A DNA stretch of 64,000 nucleotides from Candidatus Avelusimicrobium vaccinum (GTDB lineage: Bacteria > Elusimicrobiota > Elusimicrobia > Elusimicrobiales > Elusimicrobiaceae): positions 75,660 to 139,659 of the forward strand of contig CADBIY010000002.1 in the NCBI GenBank assembly GCA_902794895.1, written 5' to 3'. A program made the translations under genes and the position numbers. Shown one piece after another: positions 20,727 through 29,052 of this stretch (position 1 is the stretch's first letter; each line of letters opens with the position of its first letter). The notes below the pieces were generated by a model. It did no database searches, had not been told where the DNA came from, and saw nothing but the letters and a program-made list of their open reading frames with translations.

Positions 20727-21464
20727 TTATTCCCGTGCAAAGGTGTATGCCAGCACCTTTTTAGCACCGGCTTGCCGCAATGCACGCGCACATCCTTCCA
20801 ACGTAGCCCCGGTTGTGGCAACATCATCTATCAGCAAAATGGTTTTCCCTTTTACCACGCCCGGTGCAATACACGCAAACGCGCCGGACATATTGGCCAA
20901 CCGCCCTTGCCGGTTTAATTTTGTTTGGCTGGCGGTATCGCGCGTACGGACTAAACAGGTAGCGTTGCTTTCCAAACCAAGTTGCAACGAAAACGAACGT
21001 GCGAGCAATTCACTTTGGTTGTAACCGCGTTTACGCAATTTGCGCGGGTGAAGCGGAACGGGAACAATCAAATTCACTTCTGCCAATTCCGGATATTGGG
21101 CAAATTGTTTGAACATGCTTTCACCCATAAATGCGGCTAGATAATCGGCCTGTTTATATTTTAGCCCATGCACTAAAGCACGCGAAGAAGTATTAAAAAT
21201 AAATGCGGATCGAATCATTTTGCAGGTATACTTTTTCGCCTTGCTGCCGCGGCAGGCATAACAGGAAGCCCCGCCACTTTTAAGCACCACCCCGCAGCGT
21301 TTACAAATATACGGGCCCGGCTTCTTAAGTTGATGTGTACAAAGGGGGCATAAAGGACCGTTTTCTTGGGCGGATAAATCGCATCCGCAGGCAAAACAGG
21401 TTCGCGGAAATAGAAGATGTAAAAGATACTGAACACTTTGTCCAAGAATTTTTCTTGTTTGCAT
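20727..21464 (-). CDS. comF: ComF family phosphoribosyltransferase-like protein
   Basis: A 245-residue protein with an N-terminal zinc ribbon (CFACGCDLSAQ, CPLC, CKRCG and CYAC pairs, residues about 18-70) and a C-terminal type I PRTase domain with the PRPP loop LLIDDVATTGATLEG near residue 205. ComF/GntX proteins take part in DNA uptake in competent bacteria. It starts 4 nt after the stop of the SprA-like gene, so the two share a transcript. The functional link is unclear. Confidence 0.9.
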   Translation of the reverse strand: MQTRKILGQSVQYLLHLLFPRTCFACGCDLSAQENGPLCPLCTHQLKKPGPYICKRCGVVLKSGGASCYACRGSKAKKYTCKMIRSAFIFNTSSRALVHGLKYKQADYLAAFMGESMFKQFAQYPELAEVNLIVPVPLHPRKLRKRGYNQSELLARSFSLQLGLESNATCLVRTRDTASQTKLNRQGRLANMSGAFACIAPGVVKGKTILLIDDVATTGATLEGCARALRQAGAKKVLAYTFARE

Positions 21465-21468
21465 AGGG

Positions 21469-24400
21469 CTAGAATTGTACGGTTACATTAGCCGCTACAT
21501 TGTAGGCAGTATAATCTTCCGTTTTTACATACGCATGGTCCAATACCGTCAAGCCGCCGGATAGTGTAAAGCGCAAATTACGGGAAAATTCATAATCTAA
21601 TGAAGTAGTAGCATCAAACATTTTATAGTTTTCTTTCACTTCTACCGGCGATTTTTTATCCTTGTAACTAAACGTCGTATTCCAAATAACACGGTTGGTA
21701 GCGGAATAGATCCGGTTCATAAACGGAAGTTTAATACCATGCGGTAAATTAAAGTCCCACCGCAAGTTTAAACTCGGTATTGTTTCCGTAGAACTCTCGC
21801 TCAGTTTTCCATACACGAGCCATTTATCAAACGAATTGTGCGTAATTTTGGGAGTTACACGTAAGGATTTAATGTAAAAAGAAGTCTGGGCAGAAAAACT
21901 GCTTTCCGCAATACGCTCCAAACTGGTGTGACGGCGCAAATCATTTTTATCTGAATTTTTGCGGGTGTAATTAAGCACCGTATCAAAATAATTAAACAGC
22001 ATAAACCGCAAATCGCCCCCATATTGGGTAGTAAGTTGGTCATCTGTCCCTTTATTTTCCTGTTCAATGCGGCTATAACGTAATTTTAAGTTGGAAGCAC
22101 TCAACCAACTGCCGGCGTAAATAAATTTTTCCAAATCAGAAATGGAAAATGTTAAATCCGGAAGCGTGGTGTTGGTGGAATCATATTCTGTACCGGTTTG
22201 ATTATTGGTTTGGAATGTTTTGCTAATGTTATTAATGACCGAGACTGTTTGCAACGGAGCGGCCATTCCAGTCAATTCATACTTCGAAAACGGATTCCAA
22301 CGCTGGGTAGTGGTAAAGGTATCACGCAACGTACGCGTTTTTAGATAACCGTGGCTGCCCACCCCTTTCAAGGAATGGCGGATCCATAACTCCTTGCGGG
22401 AATCAAAACCACTGTCCACATCTGCCCAGGCATCTGCGTCCTGCAAACGGTATCCCGAAGAAATTACAAAAGTACTAAACAATTTACTTTTGGGCATTAA
22501 ATCATTCCCGTTTAAGGTAAATGAAACCCCGCCGTCTGCACTGCGGTTAACCGTTTTTACTTGCCCAACCCCGGCATTGATACTGGCTTTGGCAGTTAAA
22601 TTATTACTTTCTACGGTGTTGATAGTATAACTGGCGGCAGGAGCAAACCATTTGGCAATTTTCCAAGTAGAATTAAAACCGGTGTTTTGGGTCATGGCTT
22701 TATCATAGTGAAGTTTTTCAGTGGACAACGTTTCGTAACGGGTACGGTCTTCGGTACTTTTCCGCAAACTGTAAGACGGCGTAATAGAGAACGATTGGGT
22801 TGGTTGATAGGTAATTTTTACATTCATTTTATGTGTATCTTCATCCGTATTATACGTAGAATCAGTATGACGGGAAGCATCATATTCCACCGAGGATTTT
22901 GTAAAATAATATCCGGCTGAAATATTTTTGAAAGATGCCGTATTATGGGAGATCGTAGTCCCATAGGTGCGTGCCTCATCTTTGCGTTTCATTAAATCGT
23001 AATCAACTTGGTCTAACGTATATTCCAACCCGATTTTAGGAAGGTTTTCTTTAATAAAATCTCCGCGCACCACCGCATTGGTACGTTCTACGCGCCCTTT
23101 ATCCAATAAACTAATAGTGTTGTATTCGGTAGTATCTGTAATAAGCGGCGTTTTTACCGTGCTGCGTGATAAGTTGGCTTGCATAGGAAAATGTTTTACC
23201 CGGTCCACTTTCACAAAATATTCTTCCTGGGTCGTTTCCTGCTGTTTGGAAACGGTAAGCGGCGTTTCAAAATTTCCATCTTGGTGCTTATATTTTGCGC
23301 CGGCACTTCCCCAACCGTCCCATTTGACCACCACATCCCCTTTGTAAGCATCCCCTTTGAGGGTAATGGCTTCCGCCAAATGAATAACGTTGAGCCACAC
23401 TTTACTGGCAGTTGTGGTATTTTCCGCACCGGCCATAATTAAACTGACTTCCCGGAAATTAAGCAGACCGTTTGGAACGCGGACATTTTCCACGGTCACT
23501 CCGTAGGACGGATCGGACACATTGACAAAGGAATCAACAATGCCATCGCCGTTGCCATCTATCATTTTGACCGAAATTAACCGCCAACCATCAAAATCCG
23601 CTGTTAACGGAACTTTAATTTTATCGTAATTTTTTTCAGTACCCACTTTAAGAAAGAAGTTTCCGTTTTCCGTGCCATCATTATATAACAAGAACCGGAA
23701 TTCGCGGTGTTGGGAAAAGTCCATACTCTTAAAATTACGGCTCGTGGAACAAATATTTTCCGTACAACCGGCAGTTAAGGATAACTGCAAAGCCTGATCC
23801 ATCGCATTAGCACTATCCATAGTGCTGCGATAGTTGTTAATAGAGCCGTACAGATAATTAAATACCCGCAAACCGTCTCCGGAACGGTCGTTAAAGATCG
23901 GTTCATAACGCGAATCATCCACGTTATTAATTCCGGAAATAGAAAATTGAGACGAATCCGCTTCCGTCTGCCACGAAGTGCCGGATAAACCTACATTGGC
24001 AATTTTAATTTGCCCTTTTTCCTTGGTTCCCGCCCCTTTGCGAAGGGTAATACGCACATGACGGACTGCGGTCCATTCGCTTCTGTTGGCAATAACAACC
24101 GGTTGGGAATACGTTTGCCAGGTAGTATTTTTACCCGGTTCCGGCTGCCCAACATGCTGAATTTCCGTTCCGGCATAGCCAAAGTTTCCTGCACCGCCCC
24201 AACTGGCTAGTGAATCTGTACTATCCAATTTTCCGTTACCGTTCAAATCTTGTGTATCAATACGTCCGTTGGGTTGTGATTCCGGGTTAAAAACGTTATT
24301 CACAAACGGATTATAACGTTGTTCGGTACCATCCGGATTGACATACAACCAGCCGATATCTTCATTGGGCGCCAAGGTATTTAAACAGCGAATATCTTCC

Positions 24401-26757
24401 GTCTTCGGAGCATTGGTTCCGCATTGGGTCGTCATCCCGTTGGAATTATCGGAATCTTCTTTAATGTTTCCAAAGGTAATGTTCACGTCCGGTCCACCTT
24501 CTTCGCCAAGCATCGTTAAATTAAAAGAATTTTTGGATGACAAATCCAACCCACTGGTGCTAAGCGGATAAACGATAGATACTTCGTTGAGATCCGCATA
24601 CGCACCGGTGCTGCGGCTAAAGTCGTAATCAATCACGAGAACCTGTTGTTTGTCGTCCCGGTTGGCAATCGCATGCGGATTAATTTCTAAAGAGGGAAGT
24701 TCTTGCGTATCCCAACGAATGGCATCTAAAAAGTTCGGTTTATCATTGGGGTTGGAGGCAAAAATCCAATCGTAAAATACGCGCGAGCCCGACACCTGTT
24801 CTGTCGCTTCGTTCATGCTATCAATCATGGCATAACCGAACATATTTTGTTTTTTCTCACTGCGGGCCACTTCCGCACTAAAATCTACGGAGACCGGATC
24901 CGCAATTTTAATATCACGTCCGTTGATGTCGGCTCCGTAAACGGTTAACTCCTTACTGTATGCACCGATTTGCGGAACCGTATTTGGTTTTTCGCCCCCT
25001 TCGCGCAGCATAGTGGCGCCCATGACGATTTTGTCAAATAATTTATAATCCAACCGCCCGCCCAGTACGGAACTGTTGGCACTGCTTCCGTTGACAGTAT
25101 CATACGTAATATCAATGACGGAATTTTCCGTTACCATATCGCCTTTGTAAAAAGTGATAAAGCCGGACGTATAATCAATATAATAATCGTTGTTACGGGT
25201 AAGTTGGCGGCCATTAAGTTTAACCACTTCTGAATGAATTACCATGTCCGCTTCTACAAAATACGTTTTAACGGTACTTTCATATTGGACTTTGAAGGTG
25301 CGGTTACGCGAAGAAGTGGGAGTGGGGTTATAAAGCCCCAAATCATCCGTCATGCGGCTGTCCAATTCAAATACCCCTTTATCAAAATCTACTTCAATAG
25401 TCGTAGGATATACTTGAACCGGAGCAGCGGATGCACCCACTTCCTGTCCGTTTGCGTCCAGCAAGCGTAAAATAAAATTGCCTTTCCCGTTATCTTGCGT
25501 AATTTTTTGCGCCCCGATATTATAAAACCGCTTAATTTCCATCTTATTAGCCGTTTCCGCACCAGATAAATCTTCCCATATTTTTTCATTTTCGGTTTTA
25601 ATAAGTTTAATAGTACCTGGAGTATCCCCAAACGCACTCAAATACTCCCCTTTGGTATTGCGGTAATCCACGGCCAAAACACTAGCCGCGGTAATGGAAC
25701 GTTTAAATTCAATAATCCCGCGTGCATAGTCTACTGTATAATCCACCCCGCGGGTGAGAAGTTGCCATTGGGCACTATAACGTTGCGTACCTTTATAATC
25801 GGTCGCATCTTTGGTTACCGGCACATAATCGCCTATTGAAGAGGTATTACTATATAAATAAATTTCTTCACTACCCGGGGAAATATTTCCTACATTGTTG
25901 TACCAATCACTATACGCCGTTGTATCCGCCATAGGGTGGATATTTCCGCCGAAGGTTAAATCGTAATACGTACGGCGGATATAAGAAGTGTCTGCCACCG
26001 ATACAATTTCCGACACACTTCCGCCTACGAACTGCTTTTGCTTGCTGGAACCTTTCGTTTGGGAACCGATTAGATACAAGTTAGCATTTTTATGTTGCAG
26101 GTGCATTTTGGCTCCGAATAATTGCTTTTCGTACGCAATAAATTCAGTCTGTGGCAAAGCCAAATTAATATCCCCAAATTCTGCTGATTGCACCAACTCT
26201 CCCGGTTTACCGCGGTATGCGACTGAGAGTGTTTTTTCTTCTTCCCGCTGGTCATCATAGTCAATATCCACAAACACCCGGTCCATAATTTTTCCTTGCA
26301 TTTTGAGTTGCAGTTCTTGGGCCATTTCGGTGGTGTGCTGGTTGCGGGCAGTAACATTATTATTTGCATCTTGTTTGTATTTTTTGGCCGCCATTTTCAT
26401 TCCCAGCACATAGCGCCCGGTTAGCGCAATACTGGTTCCGTACAAAGGCAGGGATAAGGTGGGATTTAACAAGGTTAAGTCGGGAATCGGTTCCGGCTCT
26501 TTGTCTAGCGCATAGGCTCCGTCTACCGAAGTGACTGCCTGACGCCAAAAGGCATCTGTATATTTGAGCAGTTGGGCATCATCCGGCGGTTCTTCCAGCG
26601 TAAGTTCCCGGTCCCGTGCGGCGGCTTGTTCTTCTTCAAAAATGGCATATTTGTTTTTATCTACTAATTGATATGGCAAATCATCCGTCCCCCAGGCCGG
26701 AGTCGGAATACATTGGATAAATACCGCAAGCGCAACAAGCAACCGCAGCATTTTCAT
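21469..26757 (-). CDS. SprA-like giant outer-membrane beta-barrel protein
   Basis: A 1,762-residue exported protein with a signal peptide (MKMLRLLVALAVFIQCIPTPAW, cut near AWGTDD). Residues 161-220 hold a VDIDYDDQREEEKTLSVAYR-type block followed by GKPGELVQSAEFGDINLALP and a QLFGAKMHLQ block. These are characteristic of SprA/Sov, the translocon barrel of the type 9 secretion system. Further on are Ca-binding-like Asp/Asn loops (DLNGNGKLDSTDS, DGNGDGIVDS) as in SprA. The C-terminal 600 residues are alternating beta-strand sequence ending in Phe, as outer-membrane barrels do. It is shorter than Bacteroidota SprA (about 2,400). No other type 9 component is in the window. It is divergent from lptF-lptG. 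Confidence 0.75.
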   Translation of the reverse strand: MKMLRLLVALAVFIQCIPTPAWGTDDLPYQLVDKNKYAIFEEEQAAARDRELTLEEPPDDAQLLKYTDAFWRQAVTSVDGAYALDKEPEPIPDLTLLNPTLSLPLYGTSIALTGRYVLGMKMAAKKYKQDANNNVTARNQHTTEMAQELQLKMQGKIMDRVFVDIDYDDQREEEKTLSVAYRGKPGELVQSAEFGDINLALPQTEFIAYEKQLFGAKMHLQHKNANLYLIGSQTKGSSKQKQFVGGSVSEIVSVADTSYIRRTYYDLTFGGNIHPMADTTAYSDWYNNVGNISPGSEEIYLYSNTSSIGDYVPVTKDATDYKGTQRYSAQWQLLTRGVDYTVDYARGIIEFKRSITAASVLAVDYRNTKGEYLSAFGDTPGTIKLIKTENEKIWEDLSGAETANKMEIKRFYNIGAQKITQDNGKGNFILRLLDANGQEVGASAAPVQVYPTTIEVDFDKGVFELDSRMTDDLGLYNPTPTSSRNRTFKVQYESTVKTYFVEADMVIHSEVVKLNGRQLTRNNDYYIDYTSGFITFYKGDMVTENSVIDITYDTVNGSSANSSVLGGRLDYKLFDKIVMGATMLREGGEKPNTVPQIGAYSKELTVYGADINGRDIKIADPVSVDFSAEVARSEKKQNMFGYAMIDSMNEATEQVSGSRVFYDWIFASNPNDKPNFLDAIRWDTQELPSLEINPHAIANRDDKQQVLVIDYDFSRSTGAYADLNEVSIVYPLSTSGLDLSSKNSFNLTMLGEEGGPDVNITFGNIKEDSDNSNGMTTQCGTNAPKTEDIRCLNTLAPNEDIGWLYVNPDGTEQRYNPFVNNVFNPESQPNGRIDTQDLNGNGKLDSTDSLASWGGAGNFGYAGTEIQHVGQPEPGKNTTWQTYSQPVVIANRSEWTAVRHVRITLRKGAGTKEKGQIKIANVGLSGTSWQTEADSSQFSISGINNVDDSRYEPIFNDRSGDGLRVFNYLYGSINNYRSTMDSANAMDQALQLSLTAGCTENICSTSRNFKSMDFSQHREFRFLLYNDGTENGNFFLKVGTEKNYDKIKVPLTADFDGWRLISVKMIDGNGDGIVDSFVNVSDPSYGVTVENVRVPNGLLNFREVSLIMAGAENTTTASKVWLNVIHLAEAITLKGDAYKGDVVVKWDGWGSAGAKYKHQDGNFETPLTVSKQQETTQEEYFVKVDRVKHFPMQANLSRSTVKTPLITDTTEYNTISLLDKGRVERTNAVVRGDFIKENLPKIGLEYTLDQVDYDLMKRKDEARTYGTTISHNTASFKNISAGYYFTKSSVEYDASRHTDSTYNTDEDTHKMNVKITYQPTQSFSITPSYSLRKSTEDRTRYETLSTEKLHYDKAMTQNTGFNSTWKIAKWFAPAASYTINTVESNNLTAKASINAGVGQVKTVNRSADGGVSFTLNGNDLMPKSKLFSTFVISSGYRLQDADAWADVDSGFDSRKELWIRHSLKGVGSHGYLKTRTLRDTFTTTQRWNPFSKYELTGMAAPLQTVSVINNISKTFQTNNQTGTEYDSTNTTLPDLTFSISDLEKFIYAGSWLSASNLKLRYSRIEQENKGTDDQLTTQYGGDLRFMLFNYFDTVLNYTRKNSDKNDLRRHTSLERIAESSFSAQTSFYIKSLRVTPKITHNSFDKWLVYGKLSESSTETIPSLNLRWDFNLPHGIKLPFMNRIYSATNRVIWNTTFSYKDKKSPVEVKENYKMFDATTSLDYEFSRNLRFTLSGGLTVLDHAYVKTEDYTAYNVAANVTVQF

Positions 26758-26850
26758 AAGACGGAAAAATACCTCATCATTTCATTCTATAAAATTTATG
26801 CAACCGTCAATCATTATTTTCATGCAATTGTCCAATACGCTTTCTTTATT

Positions 26851-26859
26851 TGCTAGAAT
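26851..26859 (+). promoter_or_regulatory. Extended -10 promoter of lptF-lptG (leaderless)
   Basis: TGCTAGAAT ends 7 nt before the ATG of lptF. There is no Shine-Dalgarno. Confidence 0.6.
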
Positions 26860-26866
26860 AAAAGAT

Positions 26867-27961
26867 ATGCGTGTTTCCATTTTTACCCGGTATATCGCCA
26901 AAAGTTTACTGACCTTTTTTGCAGGTATAGTAGGCGTGCTGACCTTTGTTATTTTTATGAACCACTTTATTAAAGTGGTGGGCATTGCCATGGAATATGG
27001 TACCGGAATCGGGTGGATTATCGCTTCGCTGCTGAGTATTTTACCAGACGTATTCTGTTTAAGTGCACCAATGGCATTCCAAATTGCGGTCCTGCTTACC
27101 TTAACGAATATGAGCGAACAAGGCGAATTGATTGCCTTACGCGCGGCAGGATTTTCGTTCCAGGAAATTGTACGCCCGTTATTGGTATGTGCCATTGCAC
27201 TTTCCGCGTTACTCGTGATCATGGGTAACTGGCTGACACCCAAAAGTTATAAAAAATTTTTAGACCGCAAAGAAGAAGCCTACCGTAAAATTACCAAAGT
27301 TACCTTGGAGCCCCGTACATTTATGGACCTGGGGGATTGGGATTTGTATGTGGAAGATTTGGATCCCTCTTCCAATACGGCACAACAAATTCATCTCATC
27401 CGTAAAAACGATAACGGAGCCCTCAGTACAAAAGTAAATGCTTCCTCCGGCCGGATTATTTTAAGCGATACGGCCATTGGTTTGCAACTCAAAGACGGAC
27501 AAATGCAGCGCGTATCCGAAAAGGATCCTTCTTCGATAATTGCGGCTAATTTTGATAATTACACCATGAGTATTTCGCTCTTAAAAGAACGTTCCCGACG
27601 CTTGAAAGTAGGCGAAATGACAACGACCAAACTTTTACGCAAACTGCGTAAAGAACCGCTGGATACTAAAACCGCTAACGAATACCGAACCGGTATCAGC
27701 ATGCGCAACGTATTGGCATTATCCCCCCTTATTTTACTGTTTGTCAGTTGCCCGATTGGGTTTTCTATCGGCAAGCGGACCAATAAAGGATGGGGCATGT
27801 TGTGGAGTGTAGTAATTATTTTTACGTTCTACCTATTGATGACCCTGGGATTATCCCTGGGTAAAAAATATGTATGGCTATCGTATCCGGGGCCGTGGTT
27901 GCCGGTATTTTTAGGGATATTTGTAGCCCGCTGGCTTTGGAAAAAGAGGTTAAACATCTAA
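26867..27961 (+). CDS. lptF: LptF/LptG-family LPS export permease (first copy)
   Basis: An inner-membrane component of the Lpt ABC exporter that lifts LPS from the inner membrane toward the outer membrane. The 364-residue protein has three N-terminal helices (starting MRVSIFTRYIAKSLLTFFAG), a periplasmic beta-jellyroll domain (about residues 125-260) and three C-terminal helices, which is the YjgP/YjgQ architecture. The start at 26867 follows an extended -10; an in-frame upstream ATG at 26798 lies before that promoter and is unlikely. The stop overlaps the next start (TAATG). F versus G cannot be told apart by eye. Confidence 0.88.
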   Translation: MRVSIFTRYIAKSLLTFFAGIVGVLTFVIFMNHFIKVVGIAMEYGTGIGWIIASLLSILPDVFCLSAPMAFQIAVLLTLTNMSEQGELIALRAAGFSFQEIVRPLLVCAIALSALLVIMGNWLTPKSYKKFLDRKEEAYRKITKVTLEPRTFMDLGDWDLYVEDLDPSSNTAQQIHLIRKNDNGALSTKVNASSGRIILSDTAIGLQLKDGQMQRVSEKDPSSIIAANFDNYTMSISLLKERSRRLKVGEMTTTKLLRKLRKEPLDTKTANEYRTGISMRNVLALSPLILLFVSCPIGFSIGKRTNKGWGMLWSVVIIFTFYLLMTLGLSLGKKYVWLSYPGPWLPVFLGIFVARWLWKKRLNI

Positions 27962-29052
27962 TGCATCCGCGGTTAATTAATACCTATATTGCCAAAAAAT
28001 TTTGGGTCCCGTTCTTCTTTGCCATGGGCGTTTTTGCGGCGCTTGTCGTATTGGGGGATATGTTTGAAAAAATGAAAAATCTCGGCAACGGGATTACCAC
28101 CATGTGGGATATTTTTTCGTATGCGTTGGCTACTTTCCCCAATTGGTTAGCCACCATTATGCCGGTTGCCTGTTTATTAGGGGCCATTTCCGTTATTTCC
28201 GAAATGGTGGCAAACGGCGAGTGGACGGCCTGCGTGGCCGGCGGATTTTCTCCCAAGCAATTATTTAAACCGATTATTGCGTGTATTTTAGTAGTAGCCG
28301 GGGCAACGATGTTACTGCAGGAATTTGTCGTTCCGCCGCTTAACGTAAAAGCCAATTATATTTACTACACCCGCATGAAACCGCGCCCCAACTATAACCA
28401 ATATTTAGAAAACGACGTGCTGATTAAAATTTCTCCTACTCAAATGCTGTATGCAAAAACGGTCGATCTTACCGCTGGTACGATGACGAAAGTTTCGGTG
28501 GATACTTATAATGACAGTTGGGATATTGCCAACCAAATTGTCGCTGAACAAATGGTGTGGAACAAAGACAAGCAAAGTTGGTTATTCGCGGACGGAATCC
28601 GCCGCACTTTTGTGGGGAACATGGATACGCAAGAAGAGCGTTTTGAATCGGCAGAATCTCCTTTTACGATCCGGCCGGAAGAAATGTCTATCGGACGTGT
28701 GTATGAAAATTTAATGGGCATTCGTGATTTAACCAAACGCATCCGCTTCCATAAACAAACGGGGATTGCCTCTTACTCTGCGGAAACCATGCGCCAATCG
28801 AAATTAGCCACTCCGTTCGCTACGATTATTATGTGTTTGCTTGGGATGCCGTTTGCCATTAGCACGCGCCGCAAAAGTAAAATTGTCAATATTTTAACTT
28901 CCATGGTTATTGCGTTTACCTTCTGGTGGCTGATGTCAATGTGCACCTCTATGGGTGAAAACGGATACATTAACCCGTATTTAGCGGGTTGGGGGCCGGT
29001 ACTGATTTTTGGCGTGGTTGTATTTTTTGAATTTAAGTGGTTGCGGTTGTAG
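27961..29052 (+). CDS. lptG: LptF/LptG-family LPS export permease (second copy)
   Basis: The 363-residue partner permease has the same six-helix plus periplasmic-domain layout, beginning MHPRLINTYIAKKFWVPFFF. Its ATG overlaps the lptF stop by one base, so the two are co-translated at matched levels, as expected for a heterodimer. The periplasmic domain includes YYTRMKPRPNYNQYLENDVL. It is followed by about 300 bp of hairpin-rich DNA rather than a simple terminator. A barrel-type outer-membrane gene lies back to back with this operon. Confidence 0.88.
   Translation: MHPRLINTYIAKKFWVPFFFAMGVFAALVVLGDMFEKMKNLGNGITTMWDIFSYALATFPNWLATIMPVACLLGAISVISEMVANGEWTACVAGGFSPKQLFKPIIACILVVAGATMLLQEFVVPPLNVKANYIYYTRMKPRPNYNQYLENDVLIKISPTQMLYAKTVDLTAGTMTKVSVDTYNDSWDIANQIVAEQMVWNKDKQSWLFADGIRRTFVGNMDTQEERFESAESPFTIRPEEMSIGRVYENLMGIRDLTKRIRFHKQTGIASYSAETMRQSKLATPFATIIMCLLGMPFAISTRRKSKIVNILTSMVIAFTFWWLMSMCTSMGENGYINPYLAGWGPVLIFGVVVFFEFKWLRL

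Follow-up and report, generated by a model that had tools for sequence, protein, structure and literature searches.

A SprA/Sov relative in Elusimicrobiota and a candidate type 9-like export route with paired cargo and porV genes

The sprA-like gene and its neighbours

The window analyzed here, a stretch of 64,000 nt, comes from a member of the Elusimicrobiaceae (phylum Elusimicrobiota), outside the Bacteroidota. It harbors a large open reading frame with an ATG start and no internal stops, which occupies exactly the span given in Table 1. The original prediction had taken the product for a SprA/Sov-type protein with a signal peptide and a Phe-terminal barrel. The blocks that it quoted, DYDDQREEEKTLSVAYRGKP, AEFGDINLALP and QLFGAKM, are all found in the translation, the N-terminus is signal-like as judged by eye, and the last residue is a Phe, as in the aligned relatives, whose C-termini read LTIQF or alike.

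Table 1. The sprA-like gene, its sequence features and the flanking genes (positions within the window).
Feature	Position	Strand	Evidence or remark
comF-like gene, directly downstream of sprA	20727..21464	-	Pfam; conserved neighbour, export role not claimed
sprA-like gene, outer-membrane translocon homolog	21469..26757	-	1762 aa; TIGR04189, profile A1, fold match to SprA
C-terminal VTVQF, barrel-type ending, terminal Phe	21472..21486	-	F1762 invariant in 21/21
Best TIGR04189 stretch, residues 105-261, DYDDQ...FGDI...QLFGAKM block	25975..26445	-	TIGR04189 match
Probable signal peptide, residues 1-23	26689..26757	-	Hydrophobic N-terminus, judged by eye on the translation
lptF-like gene, divergent from sprA	26798..27961	+	PF03739, E 4.9e-66
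lptG-like gene, divergent from sprA	27874..29052	+	PF03739, E 7.9e-69; true start probably inside the ORF

TIGR04189, the NCBIfam model of the type 9 secretion system (T9SS) translocon SprA/Sov, matched the 1762-aa protein with an E value of 7.3e-28 and 96.4 bits, its equivalog cut-off being 200. Profile A1 is an alignment of 21 proteins, namely the window protein and 20 from across the phylum that are 27-46% identical to it. Each of these matched TIGR04189 individually (21/21, best E 9.6e-51), and residues 105-261 contain nearly all the N-terminal columns that are strongly conserved in A1. Searched against the PDB, A1 recovered the SprA of Flavobacterium johnsoniae (6h3i) at E 5.3e-38, with three collinear significant stretches (query residues 146-257, 476-583, and 805-1299 corresponding to chain residues 154-267, 670-779, and 1158-1735). 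Pfam assigned the protein to no family at E<=1, and a single-sequence phmmer search of the PDB did not recover SprA and gave one chance antibody match only, so the relationship to SprA is one that is visible by the NCBIfam model, by profile or by fold. The SprA_N model (PF14349) found nothing in the genome from which the window comes (hereafter the own genome), and the controls were equally silent.

Residues 96-1290 were modeled with AlphaFold (pLDDT 74.3, pTM 0.56). With this model as the query, the top Foldseek matches were the four solved SprA chains (E 1.2e-51 to 1.9e-39), followed by the next structure at 9.4e-8. In VIA-align, the model reached Z scores of 22.2, 20.5, and 20.4 against three SprA chains and 17.4 against the best unrelated barrel; the rmsd of 9-11 Å (10.5 Å over 712 aligned residues for 6h3j, Z 22.2) is large because the model holds part of the barrel only. 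The translocon barrel fold is therefore present in this partial-barrel model, and the SprA/Sov assignment of the original prediction is borne out by TIGR04189, by A1 and by Foldseek: the protein is a true relative of SprA/Sov by profile and by predicted fold. The match covers several parts of SprA and is not restricted to barrel repeats, and partner genes of the PorV family and proteins with type 9-like C-terminal sorting domains (CTDs) exist, as described below.

Two local resemblances were observed besides. Part of the region around residues 637-1133 of the model resembles family 11 carbohydrate-binding modules (Z around 13, 155-160 residues, about 3 Å). A hairpin at residues ~332-384, DYTVDYARGIIEF, resembles a phage tail tube protein (NF052337, matched in 9/21 relatives, best E 1.5e-6) and also has a weak match in PHROGs. 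The NF052337 match is short, covers a hairpin and is not taken as a sign of phage origin.

The relatives of the protein confirm a host outside the Bacteroidota and point to the Elusimicrobiota: among the best 80 of 276, 72 carry Elusimicrobi- names, 8 are labelled just 'bacterium', and no other named phylum occurs among these 80. TIGR04189 was matched in 105/119 Elusimicrobiota genomes, or 95/103 of the better genomes, and its cut-off was passed in none of the 119. The 14 genomes that gave no match all belong to family f9, nine of them to genus g19. The divergent lptF-lptG pair and the comF gene behind sprA lie where they had been predicted, and Pfam supports their identities. This arrangement recurs across the phylum, comF adjoining sprA in 18/21 fetched loci and 64/69 assessable named loci and the lptF/G genes in 18/21 and 64/70, respectively; at one locus (L037), the lptFG genes are exceptional in having the same orientation as sprA. 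The comF-sprA-lptFG setting looks ancestral to the Elusimicrobiota.

PorV-family carriers and C-terminal sorting domains

No PorV or CTD gene was found in the 64,000 nt of the window itself. Genome-wide, the PorV family model NF033709 was matched in 112/119 genomes of the phylum, often at least 16 times per genome, and above its curated cut-off in 74/119; in several families PorV-family genes lie near sprA. The own genome encodes one PorV homolog of 357 aa, which scored 80.2 bits in the genome search and 87.7 bits as a protein (cut-off 90). A second match to the PorV model (G000:C8) was rejected as PorV because it scores better as a FadL relative, and a single PorV is therefore counted in this genome. 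The own-genome type of PorV was present in all 40 Elusimicrobiaceae genomes searched, strongly in 38 and weakly in G126 and G129.

In several families, the surroundings of sprA include a gene for an M6-type metalloprotease that ends in a type 9-like CTD (L040, L047, L048, L049, L051, L054, and L055). The ends of these proteases carry the motif NYPNP...WDGKN...VA.GIYLY...KTGKLAI.R, and the NCBIfam and Pfam models of T9SS sorting domains (TIGR04183 and PF18962) detect them below cut-off. A CTD profile (A2) built from eight protease ends gave matches in 95/119 genomes, where they terminate frames that can reach about 4000 aa. No CTD was seen at E<=0.001 in 12/33 Elusimicrobiaceae genomes, so A2 is weak in that family. 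In a wider set of loci (28/30 parsable), a Lys or Arg lies six residues from the end in 26/28 CTDs. The near-C-terminal Lys of type A CTDs is almost invariant and functionally important (PMC10994853, partial text) and is located in the last strand (PMC11285876, partial text). The CTD of the own genome was modeled with a pLDDT of 72.7, and the best match of the model was the C-terminal domain of PorU (Foldseek E 1.4e-4; Z 9.4 over 100 residues, 2.8 Å). The PorZ CTD gave Z 8.1 and the RemA CTD Z 8.0 (74/76 residues, 1.7 Å); as unrelated Ig-like domains reached Z scores of up to 8.7, the CTD fold by itself is not decisive.

Among the best 150 CTD and the best 150 PorV matches listed, 16 CTDs had a PorV gene within 1 kb downstream on the same strand and the other three arrangements were found 0 times, where a rough estimate for these best 150 matches per search gives 0.14 such pairs by chance. 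We also inspected 20 of 46 candidate PorV loci, one per genome and best PorV score first. A CTD-encoding ORF lies directly upstream of porV in 13/20 and further upstream in the same cluster in 1 more; 6 are without it, one of them (L229) with masked bases upstream. The cargo gene thus precedes porV far above chance.

In the own genome, the pair is made of a 1646-aa ORF and a porV gene that starts 177 bases downstream of it (G000:C20:1-9392, L186). The 1646-aa protein has a signal-like N-terminus and an end that reads PNP...RCRWDRTNQHGKKVARGVYFGLV...KVVKVLVP; its last part matched the C-terminal part of the PorZ model at E 3.4e-6, and FlgD-Ig-like stretches are also found internally. Downstream of porV follow tadE, cpaB, a pilus secretin gene and a cpaE-like ATPase gene. 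The order porV then tadE was found in 30/30 Elusimicrobiaceae loci (L188-L217), with a CTD-ending ORF right upstream of porV in 21/30 and too little upstream DNA in the other 9. When aligned, the 21 family CTD ends matched the phylum CTD profile with a probability of 97.7%, and a Lys five residues from the end is invariant in 21/21. In the family of the window, about one recognised cargo-PorV pair, at the head of a Tad pilus operon, seems to be all that is left of the route; pilus and type 9-like cargo may work together, the link to the Tad pilus being positional only. A contig end just upstream of porV, inside the 3' end of the cargo gene or close to it, was observed in 9/30 loci (L189, L190, L191, L193, L198, L203, L210, L212, and L215), where the assembly break perhaps marks a repeat or a variable stretch.

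The three components could also be followed in genus g19, with inputs taken by hand from the SprA, PorV, and CTD genome searches. At E<1e-6, the 10 genomes with SprA have PorV in 10/10 and CTDs in 9/10, and the 10 genomes in which SprA is missing or weak (G101) have them in 0/10 and 0/10. The Fisher p values of 1.1e-5 (PorV) and 1.2e-4 (CTD) ignore kinship and hold for a threshold that was set with the data already in view; with E<=0.001 instead, PorV is seen in 3/10 and CTDs in 2/10 of the second group. General genome reduction is a confounder, since g19 genomes are reduced, six of the second ten are at most 90% complete and the tree is ignored. The five SprA-less f9 genomes outside g19 (G008, G048, G093, G107, and G117) all have PorV matches, and G048 and G117 have CTDs as well; as these two assemblies consist of about 110 and about 280 contigs, respectively, their lack of SprA could be due to assembly gaps.

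Sortase, motor and ring searches

The general C25 peptidase model PF01364 found nothing in the own genome and was matched in 1/119 genomes of the phylum. This sole C25 (gingipain-type) match, in G006, is in two pieces on two contigs (G006:C83:8486-8974 and G006:C55:15182-15640; L238 and L239). Matches to the PorU model were obtained in 76/119 genomes and rejected as PorU, because none of those listed starts before position 836 of the 1095 in the model, with most starting beyond 950, and they correspond to the CTD end. The PorU sortase, the attachment module of many T9SS, was not found in the own genome and is apparently absent from the Elusimicrobiota route.

The motor and ring were searched for beside controls that included no T9SS-positive genome. 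The GldM and GldN models gave no match at E<=0.001 in the 119 genomes (best E 0.0046 and 0.0041, respectively). GldL was matched in 2/119 at E<1e-3, which is noise-like, and 5/14 controls match too. No motor-like gene adjoins sprA in 21 loci. Hence the partner genes foreseen in the original prediction were recovered in part: PorV-family and type 9-like CTD proteins are encoded in the genome, and neither the PorU catalytic domain nor PorN/GldM-type proteins were found there.

A candidate type 9-like route and its comparison with known systems

The SprA homolog, the PorV-family homolog, the CTD and the tight cargo-porV pairing can be read directly from the sequences. From these, we consider it probable that Elusimicrobiota possess a type 9-like export route with dedicated cargo-carrier pairs and no PorU sortase, in which the SprA homolog would be the translocon. 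Such a route likely works like a T9SS. Because translocon, carrier and signal are found and the sortase is not, it is better described as a T9SS variant than as a plain member of the Bacteroidota type. In F. johnsoniae, it is within the pore of SprA that loops of PorV engage the CTD of the cargo; cargo and PorV then exit together by a lateral opening, and energy is required for release of the cargo from the translocon (PMC10994853, partial text). By analogy, the SprA-like protein would have an export role, with transport, docking and direction as follows. The signal peptide would take the cargo across the inner membrane. From the periplasm, the Ig-like domain at the C-terminus of the cargo would then move into the SprA barrel and bind loops of a PorV-family barrel docked there, and the PorV-cargo complex would exit sideways into the outer membrane, which would place the cargo on the cell surface. 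The cargo would then stay held by its PorV, neither cut nor linked to LPS. As many cargo genes have a porV neighbour and a sortase was not found, permanent holding by the carrier is probably the simplest reading. The CTDs of PorU and PorZ of Porphyromonas gingivalis are likewise uncut and stay bound to PorV or PorQ (PMC10202324, partial text).

Several observations weigh against this explanation. Both the own SprA (96/200 bits) and the own PorV (87.7/90 bits) score below their cut-offs, five f9 genomes have PorV yet lack SprA, Ig folds come near the PorU-CTD score, and the motor was not found. A more specific version is offered only tentatively and with less than even confidence: a sortase-free and perhaps GldLM-free type 9 system outside the FCB group, whose cargo would sit permanently on its own PorV and which, in gut Elusimicrobiaceae, would be reduced to one pair within the Tad operon, type 9-like export thereby supplying a surface protein for the pilus.

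The failure to find sortase and motor could have another reason, namely that the phylum has a complete ordinary T9SS whose GldKLMN motor/ring and sortase are too diverged for Bacteroidota models. As SprA scores less than half its cut-off, faster-evolving components could escape detection, and the Gld searches were controlled without a T9SS-positive genome. We nevertheless regard this as unlikely, since even the general C25 model matches one genome of the 119, GldM and GldN match none at E<=0.001, the GldL matches are of the kind given by 5/14 controls, and motor-like genes are missing beside sprA in 21 loci.

That the SprA homolog was recruited for another outer-membrane task, for example lipid or barrel assembly beside LptFG, with PorV and CTD proteins acting elsewhere, would fit its conserved neighbours, lptFG and comF, which are not secretion genes, and the placement of cargo and porV on another contig, beside Tad genes, in the window's family. 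It is very improbable given that g19 loses SprA, PorV and CTDs together and that several families have PorV-family and CTD genes in the vicinity of sprA. We give still less credence to a misassignment, in which the supposed CTDs and PorV proteins would be FlgD-like Ig domains and FadL-like barrels of a generic kind that are merely co-located. FlgD and other Ig folds do match the CTD domain, and the PorV model gives a weak match to a FadL-type protein in the own genome too, but the domain is the very last of its protein and carries a basic residue close to the end, its gene lies ahead of porV far more often than by chance, and 74/119 genomes have a PorV match above the curated cut-off.

Abby et al. 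(2016) placed T9SS in Bacteroidetes only (PMC4793230, partial text), and another account allows it for the FCB phyla and calls it absent elsewhere (PMC11285876, partial text). T9SS in Elusimicrobiota is not described in the available parts of PMC7031533, PMC12204202, and PMC8542988, and no published account of T9SS or SprA in this phylum was found in one open-access library. That a phylum so far not listed among its users encodes the SprA pore, PorV barrels and export-tag proteins suggests a wider distribution and a greater variability of the type 9 machine than assumed, and a core present in 105/119 Elusimicrobiota genomes would alter the age and spread of T9SS. A natural version with neither a recognisable sortase nor a recognised motor makes testable what the minimum cargo-moving set is and what the energy serves, and the numerous cargo-PorV pairs offer a natural set from which the recognition code could be read.

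Compared with the T9SS of Bacteroidota (F. johnsoniae, P. gingivalis), the Elusimicrobiota share the SprA-family barrel and the PorV-family carrier, and their cargo has a signal peptide, a C-terminal Ig-like domain and a near-terminal Lys/Arg. The SprA of the window, with 1762 residues, is about 640 shorter than that of F. johnsoniae (2403 residues). In contrast to the Bacteroidota systems, the phylum lies outside the FCB group, has no PorU-type peptidase and no motor/ring that was found, and harbors numerous PorV paralogs, with a cargo gene often having one of its own next to it. The closest T9SS CTD folds to that of the own genome are those of P. gingivalis PorU and PorZ, although the Elusimicrobiota cargo is neither a peptidase nor an LPS-delivery protein and its permanent retention is inferred only. 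The linkage of a cargo gene to a dedicated shuttle-barrel gene is also known from the type B CTD cargo of F. johnsoniae with its cognate PorP/SprF shuttles (PMC12618676, partial text); unlike that system, the carriers of Elusimicrobiota are PorV-family proteins, and the CTD of their cargo comes closest to type A (PorU, PorZ, and RemA).
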